Part shown: piece after piece, positions 1,635 through 17,621 of the stretch
Layout of the letters: each line of letters starts with the position of its first letter
Numbering within the stretch: position 1 is the first letter of the stretch
Virus record (IMG/VR): IMGVR_UViG_3300032331_000877
Span: 1 to 21,243 of that record
Direction: 5' to 3' (one strand)
DNA from: a virus
Length of the DNA stretch: 21,243 bases
Position numbers and translations under genes: made by a program
The notes under the pieces: generated by a model
What the model saw: only the letters and a program-made list of their open reading frames with translations
What the model was told of the DNA's origin: nothing
The model's database searches: none

Positions 1635-2357
1635 TCATTGTGCTGCTCTCAAATCTGCTCCGACTATAGGTACCCGTATGAATGCTTCCTGAGCAAAACT
1701 TGCCATTGCTTCCCTATACTCTGCTTCCCAATTTTCTAGGCGCACATTAGTGGTAACAATTGTTGGCAGAGCCTTGTCGTATCTAAGCCTAAGTATCTCA
1801 TCAAATGATGTGTCATCGTACTTTGAACCATATTCTTTTCCTAAGTCATCTATAACTAGTATTCGAACATTTAACCAATCAAACTTAGATCTGCCATGAA
1901 AGCCATCTATCTCATAGACGGCCTGCTTCTTATCCTCAAAGTCAGAATCAAAGGTTGCTTTCTTTCTAGATAAGAATTCTGGGTAAGTCATGTAGTACAC
2001 AGGCCTTGCGCCAAGACCAAAGTCAGATGCACTCATGCCCAACACCTTTGCAGCCTCTGCATCATTGTCTGGAAGATTGCGAACAAACTCCATTGCAGCA
2101 ACTACTGCGTGAGTTGTCTTACCAATTCCAGGTCCTCCATCAAATAAAAGACCAACACCATTAACTCCGATATGGCCAATTTGTTTTATGACTTGGCCAT
2201 TAACGCAGTCATCTATCCACGTAGTCACCTCGTTAGGAAAGGATCCCGCTCTGTCCACAAGGTCTTGTGGCTCAAGGCCGAGGAAGCGACGTGGGATGTT
2301 TGAGTTACGAAGTAGCCAGTGCTTCTTTAAGGCCGATAGTTGATTAATGTCATACAT
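1635..2357 (-). CDS. DnaC/IstB-like AAA+ helicase loader
   Basis: This AAA+ ATPase is of the type that loads DnaB onto single-stranded DNA. A Walker A loop (GGPGIGKTT, residues 74-82 from this start), a Walker B strand (RILVIDDLG, about 165-173) and a sensor-like TIVTTN (about 199-204) occur in the correct order. The C-terminal end, FIRVPIVGADLR, fits the final strand and arginine region of DnaC/IstB proteins. The N-terminus (LSALKKHWLLRNSNIPRRF) resembles the helical segment before the ATPase core in this family. The start at 2357 overlaps the stop of the upstream 48-codon ORF (ATGTATGA). The frame is open to ATGs at 2381 and 2393, which would add 8 or 12 residues; neither has a good ribosome site. 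Together with the phage DnaB it makes a self-supplied loader-helicase pair. The transposition protein IstB is the alternative family, but no transposase is present. Confidence 0.88.
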   Translation of the reverse strand: MYDINQLSALKKHWLLRNSNIPRRFLGLEPQDLVDRAGSFPNEVTTWIDDCVNGQVIKQIGHIGVNGVGLLFDGGPGIGKTTHAVVAAMEFVRNLPDNDAEAAKVLGMSASDFGLGARPVYYMTYPEFLSRKKATFDSDFEDKKQAVYEIDGFHGRSKFDWLNVRILVIDDLGKEYGSKYDDTSFDEILRLRYDKALPTIVTTNVRLENWEAEYREAMASFAQEAFIRVPIVGADLRAAQ

Positions 2358-2496
2358 CGTCTTCGTCAAACTCCACTTCATACATGCCGCCATAGCGCAT
2401 ACCTACGTGGTCAAACCAACTACCGATGAGTAACATTACATCGCCAAAAAATCTAAGAAACTTATTAGTCGTTGGATAAACTAATCTACTTTTCAT
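2350..2496 (-). CDS. 48-residue microprotein
   Basis: This short ORF begins with an ATG at 2496-2494 preceded by an excellent ribosome site (GGGGGGAAGT). It encodes 48 residues starting MKSRLVYPTTNKFLRFFGDV. The middle is hydrophobic (FGDVMLLIGSWFDHVG) and the C-terminus is acidic (VEFDEDDV). The hydrophobic part is short for a membrane span, so an amphipathic or peripheral helix is as likely. It overlaps the zinc-ribbon gene upstream by four bases (ATGA), and its stop overlaps the preferred loader start. I do not recognise a family. The strong ribosome site and double coupling support it as real. Confidence 0.65.
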   Translation of the reverse strand: MKSRLVYPTTNKFLRFFGDVMLLIGSWFDHVGMRYGGMYEVEFDEDDV

Positions 2497-2639
2497 ACTT
2501 CCCCCCTATCAACAATTACCTTTTCCCAATCAGCATTACAAGAATAACACTTAAGATCTAAACTCATACTATCTCGTTCAGTTGCAACTCCTTGAACTTT
2601 CTTTTTACAACTTGGGCAGAAGAAACTGAACTCGAGCAT
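2493..2639 (-). CDS. 48-residue zinc-ribbon microprotein
   Basis: This is a short ORF with two CxxC pairs, CPSC at residues 8-11 and CYSC at 31-34, separated by 19 residues. That is the layout of a treble-clef or rubredoxin-like zinc ribbon. Phage microproteins of this kind often bind DNA, RNA polymerase or other proteins, but the target cannot be told from sequence. It starts with ATG three bases after the upstream gene's stop and ends in a four-base ATGA overlap with the next ORF, so it sits inside a coupled chain. No strong ribosome site is visible, which fits coupling. Confidence 0.7.
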   Translation of the reverse strand: MLEFSFFCPSCKKKVQGVATERDSMSLDLKCYSCNADWEKVIVDRGEV

Positions 2640-2642
2640 TAT

Positions 2643-2924
2643 TTAAGATTTAAAAGTTACAACGCCAACAAATAGAGTCGGCTTTCCTTTGGCGTCTCTT
2701 CCTTGACCTGCAATCATCTTCACGCTCTTGCGTGGTGTAAGTGCTTGCACTTGGCTCTTGATCCAACGCTTGCCTGCTGATGCGTTTGACCATGCAGCCA
2801 TGTTAACTACGTTAGAACCTTCGATGCCATCTGTTGTTACATTTACTATAGCCATCCATGCGCCACCTTTTTCAAGGTTCTTATTTAGATTTGCGGTAAA
2901 TGTCTTTACTACTTTTTTAGCCAT
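2643..2924 (-). CDS. Small basic protein, possible DNA-binding factor
   Basis: This 93-residue basic protein starts with MAKKVVKTFTANLNKNLEKG and is probably a beta-rich fold: a string of short strands (WMAIVNV, NVVNMAAW, KSVKMIA, TLFVGVVTF) joined by charged turns. I do not recognise a named family. A single-strand DNA-binding or initiator-accessory role is possible given its place between initiator and loader genes, but no OB-fold signature is definite. The start at 2924 is chosen because AAGGAG lies seven bases upstream; an in-frame ATG two codons earlier is only one base from that site. The 5' end overlaps the initiator gene's 3' end by eight bases. Confidence 0.8.
   Translation of the reverse strand: MAKKVVKTFTANLNKNLEKGGAWMAIVNVTTDGIEGSNVVNMAAWSNASAGKRWIKSQVQALTPRKSVKMIAGQGRDAKGKPTLFVGVVTFKS
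2738..2760. repeat. 23-base near-repeat with palindromic core, copy 1
   Basis: The core AAGTGC-TT-GCACTT lies within a 23-base stretch that recurs at 14781-14803 with one mismatch. This copy lies inside the small basic protein gene and codes QVQAL in frame. Confidence 0.5.
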
Positions 2925-3903
2925 TTGCATTCTCCTTTAGTCGTTTTTCGTATCGTGCTAGTTGTGCTCTACCAGAAAGTGAATTCTGGAAAGTGCGTCC
3001 ATCGCTTGCTTGTAACGTTCCCATCTTAACTGCTGTATCTAATGGGGCGTTAATTTTACTTAGTCCAAGATTTTCTCGGGCTTGGTTCATCTTCTTTCCA
3101 AAAGAAGCAAGGAACATCTTATACAGCATTGGGGCTTCGTCGCCAATGTTCTGGAAGTTTCGCTCATCCGCCATAAAGAGTCTGAGCAACTCTAACTCAA
3201 TTAATGCGTTGGTGTCGTATTGCTTTCTGAATTTGGCAAGGGCTCCACTAAGTTGCTTGACGCTAACTGTTCCAGGGAGTAGAGGGTACTTGCGCCCGAC
3301 ACGAAAAGAAAACTCTGCAGCGACATCCATTGGGGTCCACTCGTGCTCTGCTCGTCGTCCCCTAGTCTTAGGATCGGATTTGCGGATCTTAGGTTGCGGT
3401 GCATCCTTCGGTTCGACCAATCCAAAGCCTGCAAGATTGTCTCCATCATCTTGATATTGTCTCATAGGTACTCGTATCTCTTTCATTAGAATCCCTTTGG
3501 ATTCAGAATCTTTTAATTTATTACTATCTAGACTATTAGGTACTAATGACTTATTAGTCATACTGCTACGTGACTTATAGTCATGTGAGGTGCGGTAATT
3601 TACAGTGCGGTAATTTTCAGCATCTTTTTCTGTAGTGCGGTAATTTTCCACCACTTCATACCAGTCCATTCCTTTAAAACCATTAGCCCTCTTGCTAGGA
3701 GTTCTGATTATCAGTCCATGTTTTTCTAACGCCTTGAGTGCAGTTCTAACGGTTCGGTCCGAAGTTTTGTTAGTCTGTCTACATAACTCCTCTACAGATG
3801 TCTTAAATCGGCCCTTGGAGCCCGCTAAGTGGCAGATTACAGCCAGCAGTCGGAACTGAAAATCGGTAAGAGGAGCAGAGTAAGCCTCTAGAGGTATTTT
3901 CAA
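2917..3903 (-). CDS. Winged-helix replication initiator (lambda O / DnaD-like), TTG start
   Basis: This 328-residue protein has a winged helix-turn-helix at about residues 12-72 (LTDFQFRLLAVICHLAG, then SVEELCRQTNKTSDRTVRTA as recognition region, then a wing). That is the layout of phage replication initiators that bind origin iterons. A charged, low-complexity linker (about 85-195) follows, with the motif NYRT repeated three times at residues 87-105. A C-terminal helical domain (about 195-328) could contact the loader or helicase. The DNA coding the NYRT repeats forms iterons, so the origin probably lies inside the gene, as in lambda O. The start codon is TTG (3903-3901), overlapping the upstream stop by four bases (TTGA), and no nearer in-frame ATG keeps the winged helix. 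A transcription regulator is the main alternative, but the gene neighbourhood argues for replication. Confidence 0.8.
   Translation of the reverse strand: MKIPLEAYSAPLTDFQFRLLAVICHLAGSKGRFKTSVEELCRQTNKTSDRTVRTALKALEKHGLIIRTPSKRANGFKGMDWYEVVENYRTTEKDAENYRTVNYRTSHDYKSRSSMTNKSLVPNSLDSNKLKDSESKGILMKEIRVPMRQYQDDGDNLAGFGLVEPKDAPQPKIRKSDPKTRGRRAEHEWTPMDVAAEFSFRVGRKYPLLPGTVSVKQLSGALAKFRKQYDTNALIELELLRLFMADERNFQNIGDEAPMLYKMFLASFGKKMNQARENLGLSKINAPLDTAVKMGTLQASDGRTFQNSLSGRAQLARYEKRLKENANG
3542..3583. repeat. Paired palindromes beside the iterons
   Basis: Four half-sites of TGACT/AGTCA lie in 37 bases. ATGACT-TATT-AGTCAT (3546-3561) is a perfect six-base inverted repeat, nested with ACTAAT-GACTT-ATTAGT (3542-3558). 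TGACT-TAT-AGTCA (3571-3583) is a second copy. They sit immediately beside the iterons, with AT-rich sequence (about 3490-3545) on the other side. They may be further protein-binding sites of the origin or an operator. Confidence 0.5.
3590..3647 (-). repeat. Three iterons, candidate phage origin binding sites
   Basis: The word gtgcggtaattt (plus-strand reading) occurs at 3590-3601, 3605-3616 and 3635-3646. Starts are 15 and 30 bases apart, i.e. in steps of 15. The last two copies extend to gtgcggtaatttt. The repeats code the NYRT peptides of the initiator's linker. Evenly phased direct repeats inside the initiator gene, next to AT-rich sequence and palindromes, are typical of iteron-type phage origins. 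Binding by this initiator is inference. Confidence 0.6.
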
Positions 3904-12539: not shown

Positions 12540-14488
12540 TATTTACTCCCTACTGTTTGAAGATCTTTATCATTTAATAAAATTTCTTTTACTTTTTTAG
12601 CAAGAACGTTTGCTTCAGAAACTGAGGCATTGGCTAAATTTACATTTATGTTAACTGTTTTATTTCCAATTGAACTAGAAATAGAACTAGAACTAGAACT
12701 AGATCCAGATTTAAAGGTACCCCAAGGAGAAGCAGACACTTCGTTTAATACTTTCTTTGCATCTTTGCCTTCGTATAACGCTTTTCTAACATTTGCATAA
12801 TAATCCATGTTTAAAGTTTGAGCAGTTGCTGATAGTCCTCCCTCGTAACTAGAATACTTTTGTACCCCAACACTATTCATGCTTCCAGCAGAGGCACTTG
12901 TTTCAAGTGTTGTATTTAACGGATTATAGGTTGCACTATTTTTCCAATGACCGCCTTCATAAGCCATCCAAGTTGTCATTGCTTTTAAATTTTCAGAAGT
13001 TAATGGAGCGCCAATTTTAGTTAAAAGATCACTAGCAAATTTTTGTTGTTCTGTATTTCCCGTTATTAATTTATCAGGTACGTTACCCGAGATTGTTGAT
13101 TTTTCTTGAGGTGCTTGTGCCGCATTAGCAGGAGTTCCAAACATATTTTTTCCTAAAAACTTTAATCCCTCATAAGCAAGTAATGCGGTACCAACACCAG
13201 GAACTGCTCTTAATGCGGCTTTCATTCCAAATTTTGCAACAGTACTTGCTGCAGCGCCACCACCACCAGCAAGAACATTTGTTGCTCCTTTGGCTGCTAA
13301 TCCTGCAAGAGCCTTACGAGCACCAGCGCCAATTGCAAGTGTTGATACGCCCGCAGCAATTCCTCCAGCAATACCACCAACAAGAGAACCAGCATTTGTA
13401 TTAGACATTCCTTGAACAAGTCCTCTTGCTTTAAAGAACCCATCAGGTAATTTTTCTAACTGTGCGTTTAATGCGGCGGCTGCTGTTGCAGCATCATTAA
13501 ACCCAGCAATCATTGGCGTTGTTCCACGCTCCATTAAGGATGTCATAGATGTAGCAATTGTCATCTGTGCGTTTGTTGGATTGTCAGGATTAAATGGCGC
13601 ATTTTCTAAATCAAACTTTTTACCAGCAGCCTTATCAAGTAACCCTTGTCTAACAATTGAGATTTGATTATCAGATAAACCAGCGGCTCTCATGTATGCA
13701 CCAGCGCCACCAGAACGTATTGCTAAATTTATTTGTTCAGAGGTGTATTGTTTTCCTGGTTGAGCAAACCGAGCATAAAATTGATTAACAATATCGCCAG
13801 TAGATCTAGCCTTACCAGTTGCTGGATCAAAGGTACTGATACCTAATCCATATAATCTTCCGCCCATTGAACCAGTTTGAAATCCGCCAATTGCTTGTGC
13901 TGCTGCTTCATTGCCCATTCCAAGATAACGAGCAGCGCCACCAACTTCTTTTACTGCTCTATTAAAATCTGAAGTTCCTGGCATGTAGCCGTAGCCTTGA
14001 GTAAGTATCGACGCAACATACTGATCAGAACCAGGACTAGTTACGCCGCCACCTAATGCACTAAAGGTTGCTTTAGCCACACCAGCACGGTTCATTTGAC
14101 CGCCAGTAGATAAAGCGCTCTGGTAGAAACCAGTTGCACGAGCAACTGTTAATCCAAGATCTGGCATTGCATTGTAGGCTCCGCTAGCAGCACCTAAACC
14201 AAACTGAACTCCACCAACTGCGGCTGCGCCTTTTTTAGAGTAGAGCCAAGGCATCATTCCGCTTTGGCTGCCACCAGTTCCATTACTAAACTGAGCGCCA
14301 CTTGTTCCAAGTCCCATGCTGGTACTCTGACCAACACCTGGAGTTAGAAGCGATGTAACACCTTTCAAGGTGGTGCCAGCAAGTCCGCTTAATTTTTTTA
14401 AGGATGATTCAATAAGGTTTAATTTTTTTACAGTATTATCTAAACCTGCGTTCAGCCCAGAAACTTGGGAGATGGGATCTTTAGCCAT
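12539..14488 (-). CDS. Tape measure protein with embedded lysozyme-like domain
   Basis: This 649-residue protein lies between the chaperone and baseplate genes, where the tape measure is expected. It is rich in Gly, Ala and Ser. Hydrophobic segments occur at ~365-390 and ~423-442. Residues ~479-593 look like a peptidoglycan-hydrolase domain of the type found in tail proteins: LKAMTTWMAYEGGHWKNSA with candidate catalytic Glu511, then YNPLNTT, GVQKYSSYEGG and a helical end. A Ser-rich linker (594-608) and a C-terminal coil (NINVNLANASVSEANVLAKK) follow. At the usual ~1.5 angstrom per residue, a 649-residue ruler predicts a tail near 97 nm or less. The ATG overlaps the frameshift ORF's stop by eight bases, with AAAGG nearby. 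Confidence 0.85.
   Translation of the reverse strand: MAKDPISQVSGLNAGLDNTVKKLNLIESSLKKLSGLAGTTLKGVTSLLTPGVGQSTSMGLGTSGAQFSNGTGGSQSGMMPWLYSKKGAAAVGGVQFGLGAASGAYNAMPDLGLTVARATGFYQSALSTGGQMNRAGVAKATFSALGGGVTSPGSDQYVASILTQGYGYMPGTSDFNRAVKEVGGAARYLGMGNEAAAQAIGGFQTGSMGGRLYGLGISTFDPATGKARSTGDIVNQFYARFAQPGKQYTSEQINLAIRSGGAGAYMRAAGLSDNQISIVRQGLLDKAAGKKFDLENAPFNPDNPTNAQMTIATSMTSLMERGTTPMIAGFNDAATAAAALNAQLEKLPDGFFKARGLVQGMSNTNAGSLVGGIAGGIAAGVSTLAIGAGARKALAGLAAKGATNVLAGGGGAAASTVAKFGMKAALRAVPGVGTALLAYEGLKFLGKNMFGTPANAAQAPQEKSTISGNVPDKLITGNTEQQKFASDLLTKIGAPLTSENLKAMTTWMAYEGGHWKNSATYNPLNTTLETSASAGSMNSVGVQKYSSYEGGLSATAQTLNMDYYANVRKALYEGKDAKKVLNEVSASPWGTFKSGSSSSSSSISSSIGNKTVNINVNLANASVSEANVLAKKVKEILLNDKDLQTVGSK
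12672..12701 (-). repeat. Tandem hexamer GAACTA in the tape measure gene
   Basis: The unit gaacta (plus strand) occurs in five tandem copies, the second being gaaata. It codes for a serine linker between the lysozyme-like domain and the C-terminal coil. Slippage at this repeat could change linker length in steps of two residues without shifting the frame. Confidence 0.6.
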
Positions 14489-14657
14489 TCATCATCCTTT
14501 CGTTTCGAACTCGGGCAATCTCTAACCAATTACTTCTCTCTCTTCGAGACATATCCTTTATCTCTGAGAGAGACCAACTGCTATAAAACTCGCTTATGGA
14601 AGACCATTCATAGAACAATCTGACATAACCAATTACATTAGAACTGAAATAAGGATC
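14481..14657 (-). CDS. Frameshift extension of tail assembly chaperone
   Basis: This open frame lies +1 (equivalently -2) to the upstream chaperone gene and has no convincing start of its own. Its first codon lies just after a TAG (14660-14658); the chaperone's own stop is at 14640-14638. In between, only UUU-C (14649-14646) lets the P-site tRNA re-pair after +1 slippage. The tail would be 54 residues, from SSNVIGYVRLFYEWSSISEF through SEIKDMSRRERSNWLEIARV to a stop at 14483-14481, inside the tape measure's start. The fused product would be ~319 residues. A short chaperone plus a frameshifted long form, upstream of the tape measure, is a conserved feature of long-tailed phages. The helical, Trp/Tyr-rich tail with MSRRERSNW fits such extensions. 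Confidence 0.68.
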   Translation of the reverse strand, partial: DPYFSSNVIGYVRLFYEWSSISEFYSSWSLSEIKDMSRRERSNWLEIARVRNERMMNG

Positions 14658-15441
14658 CTAAATTAATAGGAACCGTTACCTCACTTCCTGTTTCTGGATC
14701 AATAATGACCACATCTTCAAACTGAGGACCTGGCGCTCTCTTATTAATTTCTTCAATGATAGTTCTGCGATCAACAACGCTAAGTGCTTGCACTTGGTTC
14801 TTGCTATACACAGGGCTCTCTCCAATACGAACTACCGTATTTTCTAGAACGATAGTACTTAGTTCTGCAGAGGTCTTATCCATGTTATTGATCATTTCTC
14901 TTTGAACAACTCCGTTAGGAAGTTTTACTGTGTACTCAAGGCTCTTACCTTTAACAGTAAACATTCGTCCATTGATTGGATCAGTAAGGATCTTGGTTTT
15001 AATATCAGTAGTGATATCAACCTCTACTAATTTCTCTTCTCCATTAGTGAATACTGGAATCTTAACTTTGCTACCAAAGGTGGCTTTTAAAATTCCAAGA
15101 AGTATTGCATCTCTATCTCCTACTAGTAACTCATCTAATATCTTATCTGTGGCTAATTCATTGCCAATTCTTACAGTTCCTAGTTGTAGGATTGTAAGTA
15201 TTGCTTTACCTAAGTTAGTAGTTTTTGAGATGAGTTCTTCATCTTTACCAGTAAGTTCACGTACTTCTGCAGTTCTGATGATCTCCCCAGCGGCGTTTAA
15301 ATAGCCGCCAGGAAGTTCAACAGTTGTATCTGAAGGAGATACGATTTCAGGAGTTCTTTCTTTTGGCGTTTCAGTTAACGCCTTGTTTAACATTTGGTTT
15401 GCTAATGCGGGATTAGCCGCTGCACTAATTGTGTTCGTCAT
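14638..15441 (-). CDS. Tail assembly chaperone, short form
   Basis: This 267-residue protein sits between the tube and tape measure genes, the standard place of the gpG/gpE-type chaperone. The N-terminal half has VELPGGYLNAAGEIIRTAEV then RELTGKDEELISK, a pattern common to chaperones of myophages (a polar sheet then helices). The rest is alpha/beta (KILDELLVGDRDAILLGILK, DRRTIIEEINKRAPGP) and ends in VTVPINLGSLFQF. The chaperone binds the tape measure and recruits tube protein; it is not in the mature particle. The ATG has AAAGGA five bases upstream. A +1 slip near the end would join it to the extension listed separately. Confidence 0.8.
   Translation of the reverse strand: MTNTISAAANPALANQMLNKALTETPKERTPEIVSPSDTTVELPGGYLNAAGEIIRTAEVRELTGKDEELISKTTNLGKAILTILQLGTVRIGNELATDKILDELLVGDRDAILLGILKATFGSKVKIPVFTNGEEKLVEVDITTDIKTKILTDPINGRMFTVKGKSLEYTVKLPNGVVQREMINNMDKTSAELSTIVLENTVVRIGESPVYSKNQVQALSVVDRRTIIEEINKRAPGPQFEDVVIIDPETGSEVTVPINLGSLFQF
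14781..14803. repeat. 23-base near-repeat with palindromic core, copy 2
   Basis: This is the second copy of the stretch at 2738-2760, inside the tail assembly chaperone gene, with the same palindromic core. It also codes QVQAL, although the two proteins look otherwise unrelated. Confidence 0.5.
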
Positions 15442-15464: not shown

Positions 15465-16088
15465 TTAGAATGCTGCTGCTGAAGTTGTTAGATTTGCTGC
15501 CCAGTTAACATCAAAGCCCTCATGGACTAGAGTCATTTGTTCAACAAACAATGCGTTATCACCAGCGTTTAGATCTGAGTATGCCACAGCAGTTGGCCAG
15601 CAGTTATACACATTAAAGCGCATCGCTACATGGTCGGTTGCTGCTGGACTATTTTGAGCAGTTTCACCTGCTGATGGAATTGGATGAGATAGAACAGCAA
15701 TCTCTAAATCGCAACGGAAGTTATCGGTTCTAGCACGAGTTGACCCGCCACCTTGAACTGTTGCAAATAGATTACGCATCCATTCATAGTTCTGATTACT
15801 TCCTAGGATTACACCACGTTGCAACGTAATTGGAGCAAATGTGGTTTGTCCTGGAATCTGGTGAACAGTGGTGTTGTACCCACCTTCACGGTAAGGAATG
15901 GAGTCAGTTGTAACAGCCATTCCAGAGACTGATGTAAACCCAAAGGTTGTTGCATTACCAAGGGCGGTTGTTGCAGCACTGGTAGGTGCTCCTCCAACGC
16001 TAGTCAGCGGTTTAAACGTAACTAAAAATCTAAAGTTACGTAATGGATCGGTAAGTAAATTTGACCGATTATTAATGATTGTAGGCAT
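15465..16088 (-). CDS. Tail tube protein, T4 gp19 family
   Basis: This 207-residue protein follows the sheath gene, as tube genes do. The N-terminus NLLTDPLRNFRFLVTF and the region FGFTSVSGMAVTTDSIPYRE, then HQIPGQTTFAPITLQRGV, match the gp19 tube family. A short insert (GGAPTSAATTALGNATT) occurs at ~32-48. Hexamer rings of this protein would form the inner tube. AAGGAG precedes the ATG by eleven bases, a little far. Confidence 0.93.
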   Translation of the reverse strand: MPTIINNRSNLLTDPLRNFRFLVTFKPLTSVGGAPTSAATTALGNATTFGFTSVSGMAVTTDSIPYREGGYNTTVHQIPGQTTFAPITLQRGVILGSNQNYEWMRNLFATVQGGGSTRARTDNFRCDLEIAVLSHPIPSAGETAQNSPAATDHVAMRFNVYNCWPTAVAYSDLNAGDNALFVEQMTLVHEGFDVNWAANLTTSAAAF

Positions 16089-16109: not shown

Positions 16110-17621
16110 TTAGTTCAGCGTCTTTTGGCTGAGATCGATGACGATGAACTCTGCTGGGTATTGAAGGGCAACACCAACCTGAATGTGAACTTCACCATTT
16201 GCAATATCTGCATCTGAGTTGTTCTCTGCATCGCACTTTACAAAGTAAGCCTGGGTAGCAGTTGCTCCACGAAGTCCACCTTGGTTGCGATACTCATTTA
16301 AGAATGATCCAAGATTTGTGTTTATACGTGCCCACAATCTTTCATCATTGTTTTCAAATAATGCAAACTCTGTTAGGTTCTTTAAATTCTTACGAATGTA
16401 AATTAAAGAACGACGCATGTTTACATACTTGTTTGCAGTTCCATCTTGCTTAAGTGTACGAGCACCCATTACAGAAAGCCCAGCGCCAGGAATCTGACGG
16501 ATTGGGTTTACTGGAGATGTGCTTGCGTTCATAGTATCTAGTTCAGTTGATGTAAATGATTTCTCTACAGAAACAATTCCTAGTACTGGAGTTGAAATAC
16601 CAGCAGGTGCTTTAAACACTCCACGGCTGGCATCTATTGATAGGTAAAGACCAACAACGGCACCCGCAGGTTCAATTTTGCGAAGTGCTCCAGAACTACG
16701 TCCTAGTGGATCAGAGATGTACACGTTTGGATAGTAGACAGCAGCATTGCTTGTATCTGTAAGAGAACCAGCAAAAGAAACAGCATTTGCAACTGTTAAA
16801 TCTGGATCAGTTCCAATTACAACAAAGCCGTTATTATCTTCTGCCCAAGAAGTTGCTGCATCAAAGACTGAAACGGTTCCAGATGCTAATGCATTTGCGT
16901 CAGGAATAAAGACCACTAATGGACGGTCTAGTGAAGTAAAGCGTTCAAATACTGAAGCGCCACCAGCCTTATAGTTAGTGTAATCAGTAGCAGCAGTTGC
17001 TGTTCCGTTTGTTCCACTTGTTAATGGATAGGTAGCACTTACTATTCCTTGACCAGCGTAACCAGCAATAACAGCAACTGAGATATTTGGTGAAATATTG
17101 TTGATTACTGTTGGAGCATAATCACTTGAAGCAGCGTCATCAAATACAACATTTGAATATCTTTCAAGAAGAATATCATCAGTAATATCATTTGCTACAC
17201 CAGACTCTTTGTAAAGAGTAAGTGTGTAAGTACTTGCAACTTCACCAGCAGTAACAACAACACGAAGATTATTTCCATCTGTTCCAGCATTTTTTGATGT
17301 AACAGTTACTCGTGCAGTGCTGCCTGAATCTACTAAGTTTCTAGATGCAGCAACAGCATTAGCCGCAAGCAAACGTTGAACATAAAGTTCACGTCCACCA
17401 TTAGCAAAGAATGAACCAACCTGGAAGGTTGCTGGATAGGTTGCGTTGTAACCTCCGAAGTACTTGGTAAATTCATACCAAGAATTAACAAGGGTTACTG
17501 TTTCTGGGCCTTGTGCAAAAGGTGCAACAACTGCGCCAGCAGCATTTGCAGTAACTCCACTTGGAAGTACTGGCGGTAGTAAGCGTTCACTTATGTAAAC
17601 ACCTGGACGGCTATAAGCCAT
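16110..17621 (-). CDS. Contractile tail sheath protein
   Basis: This 503-residue protein is the sheath subunit. It begins AYSRPGVYISERLLPP, the usual N-terminal strand that links neighbouring subunits, then NGGRELYVQRL near residue 80. The central part (~90-320) is a variable beta-rich insert exposed on the outside. The C-terminal domain contains GVFKAPAG, PIRQIPGAGLSVMGARTL, YVNMRRSLIYIRKNL and the final strand PAEFIVIDLSQ, all typical of the family. The strong site AGGAG lies five bases before the ATG. The presence of a sheath proves the contractile tail type. Confidence 0.96.
   Translation of the reverse strand: MAYSRPGVYISERLLPPVLPSGVTANAAGAVVAPFAQGPETVTLVNSWYEFTKYFGGYNATYPATFQVGSFFANGGRELYVQRLLAANAVAASRNLVDSGSTARVTVTSKNAGTDGNNLRVVVTAGEVASTYTLTLYKESGVANDITDDILLERYSNVVFDDAASSDYAPTVINNISPNISVAVIAGYAGQGIVSATYPLTSGTNGTATAATDYTNYKAGGASVFERFTSLDRPLVVFIPDANALASGTVSVFDAATSWAEDNNGFVVIGTDPDLTVANAVSFAGSLTDTSNAAVYYPNVYISDPLGRSSGALRKIEPAGAVVGLYLSIDASRGVFKAPAGISTPVLGIVSVEKSFTSTELDTMNASTSPVNPIRQIPGAGLSVMGARTLKQDGTANKYVNMRRSLIYIRKNLKNLTEFALFENNDERLWARINTNLGSFLNEYRNQGGLRGATATQAYFVKCDAENNSDADIANGEVHIQVGVALQYPAEFIVIDLSQKTLN

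Follow-up and report, generated by a model that had tools for sequence, protein, structure and literature searches.

The window studied here is a complete stretch of 21,243 nucleotides from a virus, positions 1 to 21,243 of the IMG/VR virus record IMGVR_UViG_3300032331_000877. Its minus strand encodes a contractile-tail module formed by sheath, tube, tail assembly chaperone and a gene in the tape measure position. The chaperone gene, which is the subject of this work, sits between the tail tube and the tape measure; the tube and the sheath were assigned by family, and the tape measure by its position and by annotated relatives. Over the 3' end of the chaperone gene lies a second open frame, displaced by +1, which reaches into the start of the tape measure gene. 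Very probably, a programmed +1 ribosomal frameshift joins the two frames and yields a minor, longer tail assembly chaperone of this contractile-tailed phage. The coordinates of the features are collected in Table 1.

The +1 frame comprises 58 open codons (14657 to 14484), from the TAG upstream of the slip site to a TAA at 14483-14481 that overlaps the tape measure start (ATG at 14488). An open frame of this length is by itself weak evidence, as about 6% is expected by chance when 3 of 64 codons are stops; it is far beyond chance because the extension is conserved, as judged from its substitutions frame by frame. The 3' end of the chaperone frame reads ...GGA TCC TTA TTT CAG TTC TAA. In the overlap (GGA TCC TTA TTT CAG TTC) the TTT, with C as the next base, is the sole codon that can re-pair after a +1 step, and the fused product would have 319 amino acids (aa) when TTTC is decoded as a single Phe. 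A previous interpretation of the window from its letters only, which we call the sequence-only reading, had proposed a frameshift at this place, with UUU-C (14649-14646) as the only +1 re-pairing step and a fused product of about 319 residues. Its coordinates for the chaperone stop, the limits of the +1 frame and the slip site are all correct, our codon-by-codon check agrees with its choice of step, and its frameshift interpretation is supported by the results given below.

Table 1. Features of the tail module and of the putative frameshift region (positions in the window).
Feature	Position	Strand	Basis or remark
Tail sheath protein	16110..17621	-	phrog_23, E 5e-45
Tail tube protein, T4 gp19 family	15465..16088	-	PF06841, E 3e-26
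Putative tail assembly chaperone, short form, zero frame, 267 aa	14638..15441	-	PF12322, HK97-like fold and gene order
Zero-frame stop TAA ending the short form	14638..14640	-	
Last upstream stop in the +1 frame (TAG), 5' limit for the shift	14658..14660	-	
Slip codon UUU (Phe, P site)	14647..14649	-	with C 14646 would re-pair as UUC
Zero-frame A-site codon CAG	14644..14646	-	its C is base 4 of the slip tetranucleotide
E-site codon UUA (Leu)	14650..14652	-	purine-ending Leu codons appear selected
Upstream RNA hairpin UCCUA-UUAAUU-UAGGA	14656..14671	-	end 7 nt 5' of the slip codon
GAGGUA, synonymous positions kept	14677..14682	-	candidate outer-stem partner of 14655-14646 or Shine-Dalgarno-like element
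+1-frame extension, 55 residues (Phe to Gly) and stop	14481..14648	-	would complete the 319-aa fused chaperone
Probable tape measure gene, 649 codons	12539..14488	-	position and length

Relatives came from viral contigs, scanned four times with the chaperone or profiles made from it, and from six matching Streptomyces phage records (BRock twice, LuckySocke, Alone3, pSt2308 and GiJojo). In total, 325 loci with a chaperone relative were obtained, some contigs having been retrieved twice, and the set takes in one distant record, LR756508. The zero frame of each locus was traced to its stop without presupposing the motif; 5 loci end before the stop, which leaves 320. By chaperone identity the loci form 138 groups below 90%, 82 below 70% and 19 below 50%, and the lowest pairwise identity was 27% in an earlier subset of loci. 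A search for chaperone relatives in bacterial genomes found none.

The extension behaves as a protein-coding sequence. Among 20 distinct extensions of close relatives the median ratio of nonsynonymous to synonymous polymorphism (pN/pS) was 0.18 in the +1 frame versus 1.19 and 0.99 in the other frames, the value for the chaperone being 0.16; by this measure, purifying selection acts on the extension in the +1 frame only. Five residues never vary in the extensions of 47 distant relatives: F, W, E, R and W in this order, the F being the slip Phe. The structures of the chaperone and the extension were predicted as two separate parts, and the AlphaFold2 model of the extension shows three helices with a mean predicted local distance difference test score (pLDDT) of 93. 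A tblastn search of phage records with the extension gave no match, and Pfam gave weak matches at best, for example to P2 GpE (E 0.05).

The extension might alternatively be a small gene of its own, translated by re-initiation or from its own start past the chaperone stop. It is indeed listed as a separate coding sequence in public records (BRock gp135, LuckySocke 91, GiJojo 83), while it was left unannotated in that of pSt2308, and 26 of the 138 representatives carry an ATG 13 codons ahead of the conserved Trp. However, the annotated starts fall at differing points among the relatives, 63/138 have no in-frame ATG, GTG or TTG ahead of the conserved Trp, and 105/138 lack an ATG within the first 28 codons, in accordance with the sequence-only reading, which had seen no credible start. 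Moreover, in each locus the frame stays free of stops as far back as the slip site, the first residue of the extension being the slip Phe, and a separate gene leaves unexplained the invariant UUU_C, the codon choice of G+C-rich phages and the upstream hairpin. We consider this explanation very improbable.

The slip site is the most constant part of the region. An in-frame TTT_C is found within the last 12 chaperone codons in 319 of the 320 loci with a complete end. The exception, L077 (last chaperone codons, locus 6790 onwards), keeps TTTCGC and the extension, and the stop TAA after TTTCGC TTT is mutated to TAT, with a short form longer by some codons. The UUU-C singled out by the sequence-only reading is thus kept in related loci without exception. 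TTT_C is the sole never-varying element at the site, the stop lying mostly 3-4 and up to seven codons downstream. The base after TTT is C in all 82 representatives below 70% identity, and the remaining bases of that codon vary (CGN, CAR, CTN, CCN). Phages above 60% G+C use TTT at the slip site in 31/31 cases, whereas the other Phe codons of the same genes are 231 TTC to 6 TTT. Given the Phe usage of each gene, 82 TTT out of 82 would have a probability of about 10^-32 for independent representatives, which these are not fully.

In the mechanism that we propose, the majority of ribosomes would terminate at the zero-frame TAA and release the 267-aa short form, while some, with Phe-tRNA on the UUU, would step +1 onto UUC. 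The bacterial Phe-tRNA has the anticodon GAA, and the +1 step would swap a wobble G-U pair for a G-C pair, a better match. The shifted ribosomes would then read the +1 frame and produce the 319-aa form, which ends in a 55-residue, probably helical C-terminal domain similar to the C-terminus of T4 gp51. The arrangement is that of the UUU_C +1 motif, with UUU in the P site, then C, and the extension in the +1 frame. We infer in this way that the shift takes place, that it goes forward, and that its efficiency leaves the long form as the minor product.

Two other routes into the extension frame have to be weighed. The shift could occur at another codon of the overlap, with UUU_C kept merely since both frames encode Phe, and the extension does start with an invariant Phe. 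Yet no other overlap codon re-pairs after a +1 step (YUR_U, GGN_N, CNN_N) and none is conserved at the DNA level; dual coding would also permit UUU_U, which was never seen at the slip site among the 82 representatives of this group. This possibility seems to us extremely improbable. The other route is a -2 ribosomal slip, or transcriptional slippage. A -2 step reaches the same frame as a +1 step, and the chaperone gene of phage Mu shifts -2 (PMC3498833). Two bases back from the slip UUU, however, most relatives have UAU or UGU, so that Phe-tRNA would mispair there, as the sequence-only reading had noticed for the window, where it found no matching codon. For transcriptional slippage, the three T in a row of most relatives are too few, and we think that this second route is hardly probable. 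No canonical -1 heptamer (X_XXY_YYZ) leading into the extension frame was found either, the extension being in +1 and the -1 frame being short.

The proposed +1 shift at UUU_C is accompanied by two features of its context. Firstly, the Leu codon that precedes the slip codon ends in a purine in 128/130 sequences, and in 26/28 of those from G+C-rich phages, versus 2144/3868 (55%) elsewhere in the same genes. These counts indicate that a purine-ending Leu codon is selected in the E site, which is new here. None of the other 13 in-frame UUU_C in the main genes of the window is preceded by such a codon.

Secondly, a hairpin lies just upstream, which was missed by the sequence-only reading. Structure was scanned across about 430 nucleotides (nt) with 27-nt segments against synonymous shuffles, and a single clear peak appeared, in low- and high-G+C phages alike (mean z -1.4; background -0.17, standard deviation 0.19, 128 segments). 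It is formed by segments whose start lies at -33 to -21 relative to the slip codon. In the stem, -22..-18 pairs with -11..-7 around a loop of 6 nt, and in the window the hairpin folds at -5.2 kcal/mol (z -2.7). In the fourth pair counted from outside, the third position of a Pro codon faces that of a Leu/Val codon; among 81 sequences this pair is G-C in 23, U-A in 15, C-G in 11 and A-U in 5. It gives the top covariation of 171 third-position pairs (z 8.4, the next 3.7, with shuffles within G+C bins), and it changed between Watson-Crick types at least 18 times on a tree built minus this region, both counts being inflated by the relatedness of the sequences and the stem registers differing among them. 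In pairing and covariation the stem was above all 500 shuffles (0/500 as high) and all slid registers. The comparison thus points to a covarying RNA hairpin directly 5' of the slip codon, which is new here as well.

Five bases upstream of the hairpin and about 28 nt before the slip site, the GAGGUA element is kept at its synonymous positions, with GAG 118 : GAA 2 for the Glu codon (46% GAG elsewhere) and GTA in 77/130 (59%) for the Val codon (27% elsewhere). The predicted fold of the window has it at the base of a longer stem that spans UUUC (-12.8 kcal/mol, z -3.9). Two further candidate stimulators were discarded. Raw folding is strong 60-140 nt downstream (z -1.7) and disappears against synonymous shuffles, and a dip in pairing with the anti-Shine-Dalgarno sequence at -12 to -9 is explained by a conserved Gly codon with no synonymous preference.

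Placed immediately 5' of the slip site, the hairpin probably favours the forward step by refolding in the wake of the ribosome. In built constructs, upstream hairpins against the shift site lower -1 and stimulate +1 frameshifting in yeast and in E. coli 70S extract, and in the latter a stable hairpin had about 60% of the effect of an internal Shine-Dalgarno sequence (PMC3639245, PMC6321510). The placement of the present hairpin fits the +1 stimulation seen in those constructs. A hairpin that is real and serves mRNA stability, pausing or codon context instead of the shift is, in our opinion, an unlikely but serious alternative. The 13 further UUU_C of the window imply some context without saying which, and no upstream hairpin peak was found at this place in a second group of phages with +1 extensions, that of immuto and GXN1. 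On the other hand, the peak is the strongest structure in the scanned stretch, it ends 7 nt before the slip codon, and its placement is near that which stimulates +1 in test systems (PMC6321510).

Several observations weigh against the proposed frameshift or its signals. UUU_C is common, with 14 in-frame occurrences in the main genes of the window versus 24 expected, and therefore it must be insufficient alone and depend on its context. At 8 per 1000, CAG in the A site is not particularly rare, thus a hungry-codon trigger is not obvious. As for the RNA, 25 of the 81 sequences form the strict four-pair stem in neither of two registers. RNAalifold gave no consensus structure for the full alignment of the 81 sequences, owing to the differing stem registers and to some phages being without a stem of this form. 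For an outer stem, formed by GAGGU and either -6..-2 or the slip site, the codon choices fit and covariation was not found.

The protein family connects this chaperone with that of phage T4. The short form matches Pfam T4_baseplate (PF12322) with E 4e-4, under the curated cut-off, and this family matches 44/44 relatives at E <= 0.01, with a best value of 1.7e-12. The matches of the short form among viral models are T4-like baseplate hub assembly proteins, with E down to 1e-17. Its structural model (pLDDT 89) has the HK97 tail assembly chaperone 2ob9 as the best PDB match (probability 0.90, E 0.25). A profile of the fused family aligned with T4 gp51 through the extension (WSLSEIKDMSRRER versus YSLNSISKMIPAER) with E 5e-5, whereas the extension profile alone gave just E 0.06. 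According to Vladimirov et al. 2022, as cited in PMC10885494 and PMC12846349, the tail chaperones of T4 are gp26 and gp51. On the basis of the PF12322 and viral-model matches and of the gp51 alignment through the extension, the short form is the counterpart of gp26 and the fused form that of gp51. T4 has two separate genes without a frameshift, unlike the arrangement proposed for the window, and shares with the window the PF12322 family and the alignment of the fused product with gp51, C-terminal end included.

The closest known system is found in haloarchaeal viruses of the HF1 group, for which TTT-CGC was proposed in 2020 as the +1 site of the tail chaperones (PMC7230728). We checked HF2 and confirmed its TTT_CGC site and +1 extension (HrrHF2_550/545). 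In this group (HF2, HSTV-2), as in the window, the chaperone precedes the tape measure and a +1 extension follows a TTT_C site near the stop, TTT_CGC in these viruses. The group differs in its archaeal host, in that HF2 has no hairpin directly 5' of the site, and in the A-site codon, which is CGC there versus CGN, CAR, CTN or CCN here. A query with the HF2 chaperone matched haloarchaeal viruses only, with no sequence match to the chaperone of the window.

The motif itself is also known from eukaryotic systems, where slippage at UUU_C is established for influenza PA-X and has been proposed for amalgaviruses (PMC3498833, PMC5052127). Influenza A PA-X (UCC_UUU_CGU) and plant amalgaviruses (UUU_CGN) share the P-site slip of Phe-tRNA from UUU to UUC in the +1 direction; they differ in their eukaryotic ribosomes, RNA genomes and unrelated products. 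The A-site codon in the present group is free beyond its first C, unlike those motifs: CGN occurs in 81 of 137 representatives, and the window has CAG, outside a strict UUU_CGN. The Phe codon as slip site, put forward by the sequence-only reading, is supported, while the novelty attributed to it is not. Nor is this a rare example from a single phage, as it had supposed, since hundreds of phages share the site, and the precedent that it named, Listeria phage PSA, was mistaken, as PSA shifts +1 at proline codons of its capsid and tail-shaft genes (PMC5009743).

Lambda gpG/gpGT, P2 E/E' and Mu produce, as proposed for the window, a short and a long chaperone from one gene before the tape measure, with a T-type C-terminal domain added by the shift. 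Lambda and P2 shift -1 and Mu -2, versus +1 here, and the sequences are dissimilar save for the weak match of P2 GpE to the extension. E. coli prfB, which encodes release factor 2 (RF2), likewise has a forward slip at YUU and an element located 5' of the site. RF2 has a stop codon in the A site and an adjacent Shine-Dalgarno sequence, whereas in the window group the stop is at least 3 codons away, usually 3-4 past the UUU, and there is a hairpin instead; no synonymous preference for a Shine-Dalgarno sequence was seen at the GGN codon. In the open literature (subscription papers being outside the search) we found no report of this frameshift in Streptomyces or other bacterial phages.

Distant chaperones also carry +1 extensions, in Flavobacterium phage immuto (TTT_CTT TGG), Streptococcus phage GXN1 (TTT_CGT), Bacillus phage SP-15 (TTT TTT_CAC) and LR756508 (TTT_CTA), and, at T runs (UUU_U), in Listeria phage LIS04, Rhodothermus phage RM378 and Microcystis phage Mel-JY01. 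Queries with immuto and GXN1 found a +1 extension of at least 35 codons in 77/80 loci reaching a stop. In a second group of contractile phages (L336-L415, L331, L420; immuto-like, Mel-JY01) the sequence TTT-YTT-TGG-CCT-GAC is nearly strictly kept; the slip there could be UUU_C, UUU_U or an RF2-like CUU_U. The extension is in the -1 frame, in most cases at or next to TTTTTTC, in Atu_ph07, Phosso, MT835482 and LR756511 (loci L167, L335, L334 and L419, of which L167 and L335 are Phosso and Atu_ph07). As these distant relatives use the -1 frame, this chaperone seems to have changed its direction of shifting in the course of evolution. The reading frames thus indicate +1 shifts in related phages across several host phyla and -1 shifts at UUUUUUC in others, which is new here.

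Taken together, we regard as evenly balanced the broader proposal that a covarying hairpin refolding against the E site is a natural +1 stimulator at UUU_C in a large phage group, partly actinobacterial at least, and that +1 shifting is an old and widespread route to the long chaperone in the T4 gp26/gp51 family (Streptomyces, Flavobacterium, Bacillus, Listeria, Streptococcus, Rhodothermus and Microcystis phages), replaced elsewhere by -1 at UUUUUUC or by two genes as in T4. The site looks like a very strongly conserved +1 signal in bacterial viruses, and its presence in cultured Streptomyces phages makes it measurable. If the hairpin acts as we infer, it would be a natural example of what built constructs have demonstrated. 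Related families with +1, -1 or two genes for the same protein pair offer a system for studying how the direction of recoding evolves. For annotators, we think that the extension genes now listed as orphans or omitted should be joined to the chaperone.

Regarding the neighbouring genes, family searches with the probable tape measure gene gave no clear match, and its positional counterparts in Flavobacterium phage immuto and Listeria phage LIS04 carry a tape measure annotation. Further downstream, at 1635-3903 and on the strand that also carries the tail module, lie genes for a DnaC-like helicase loader and a replication initiation protein.

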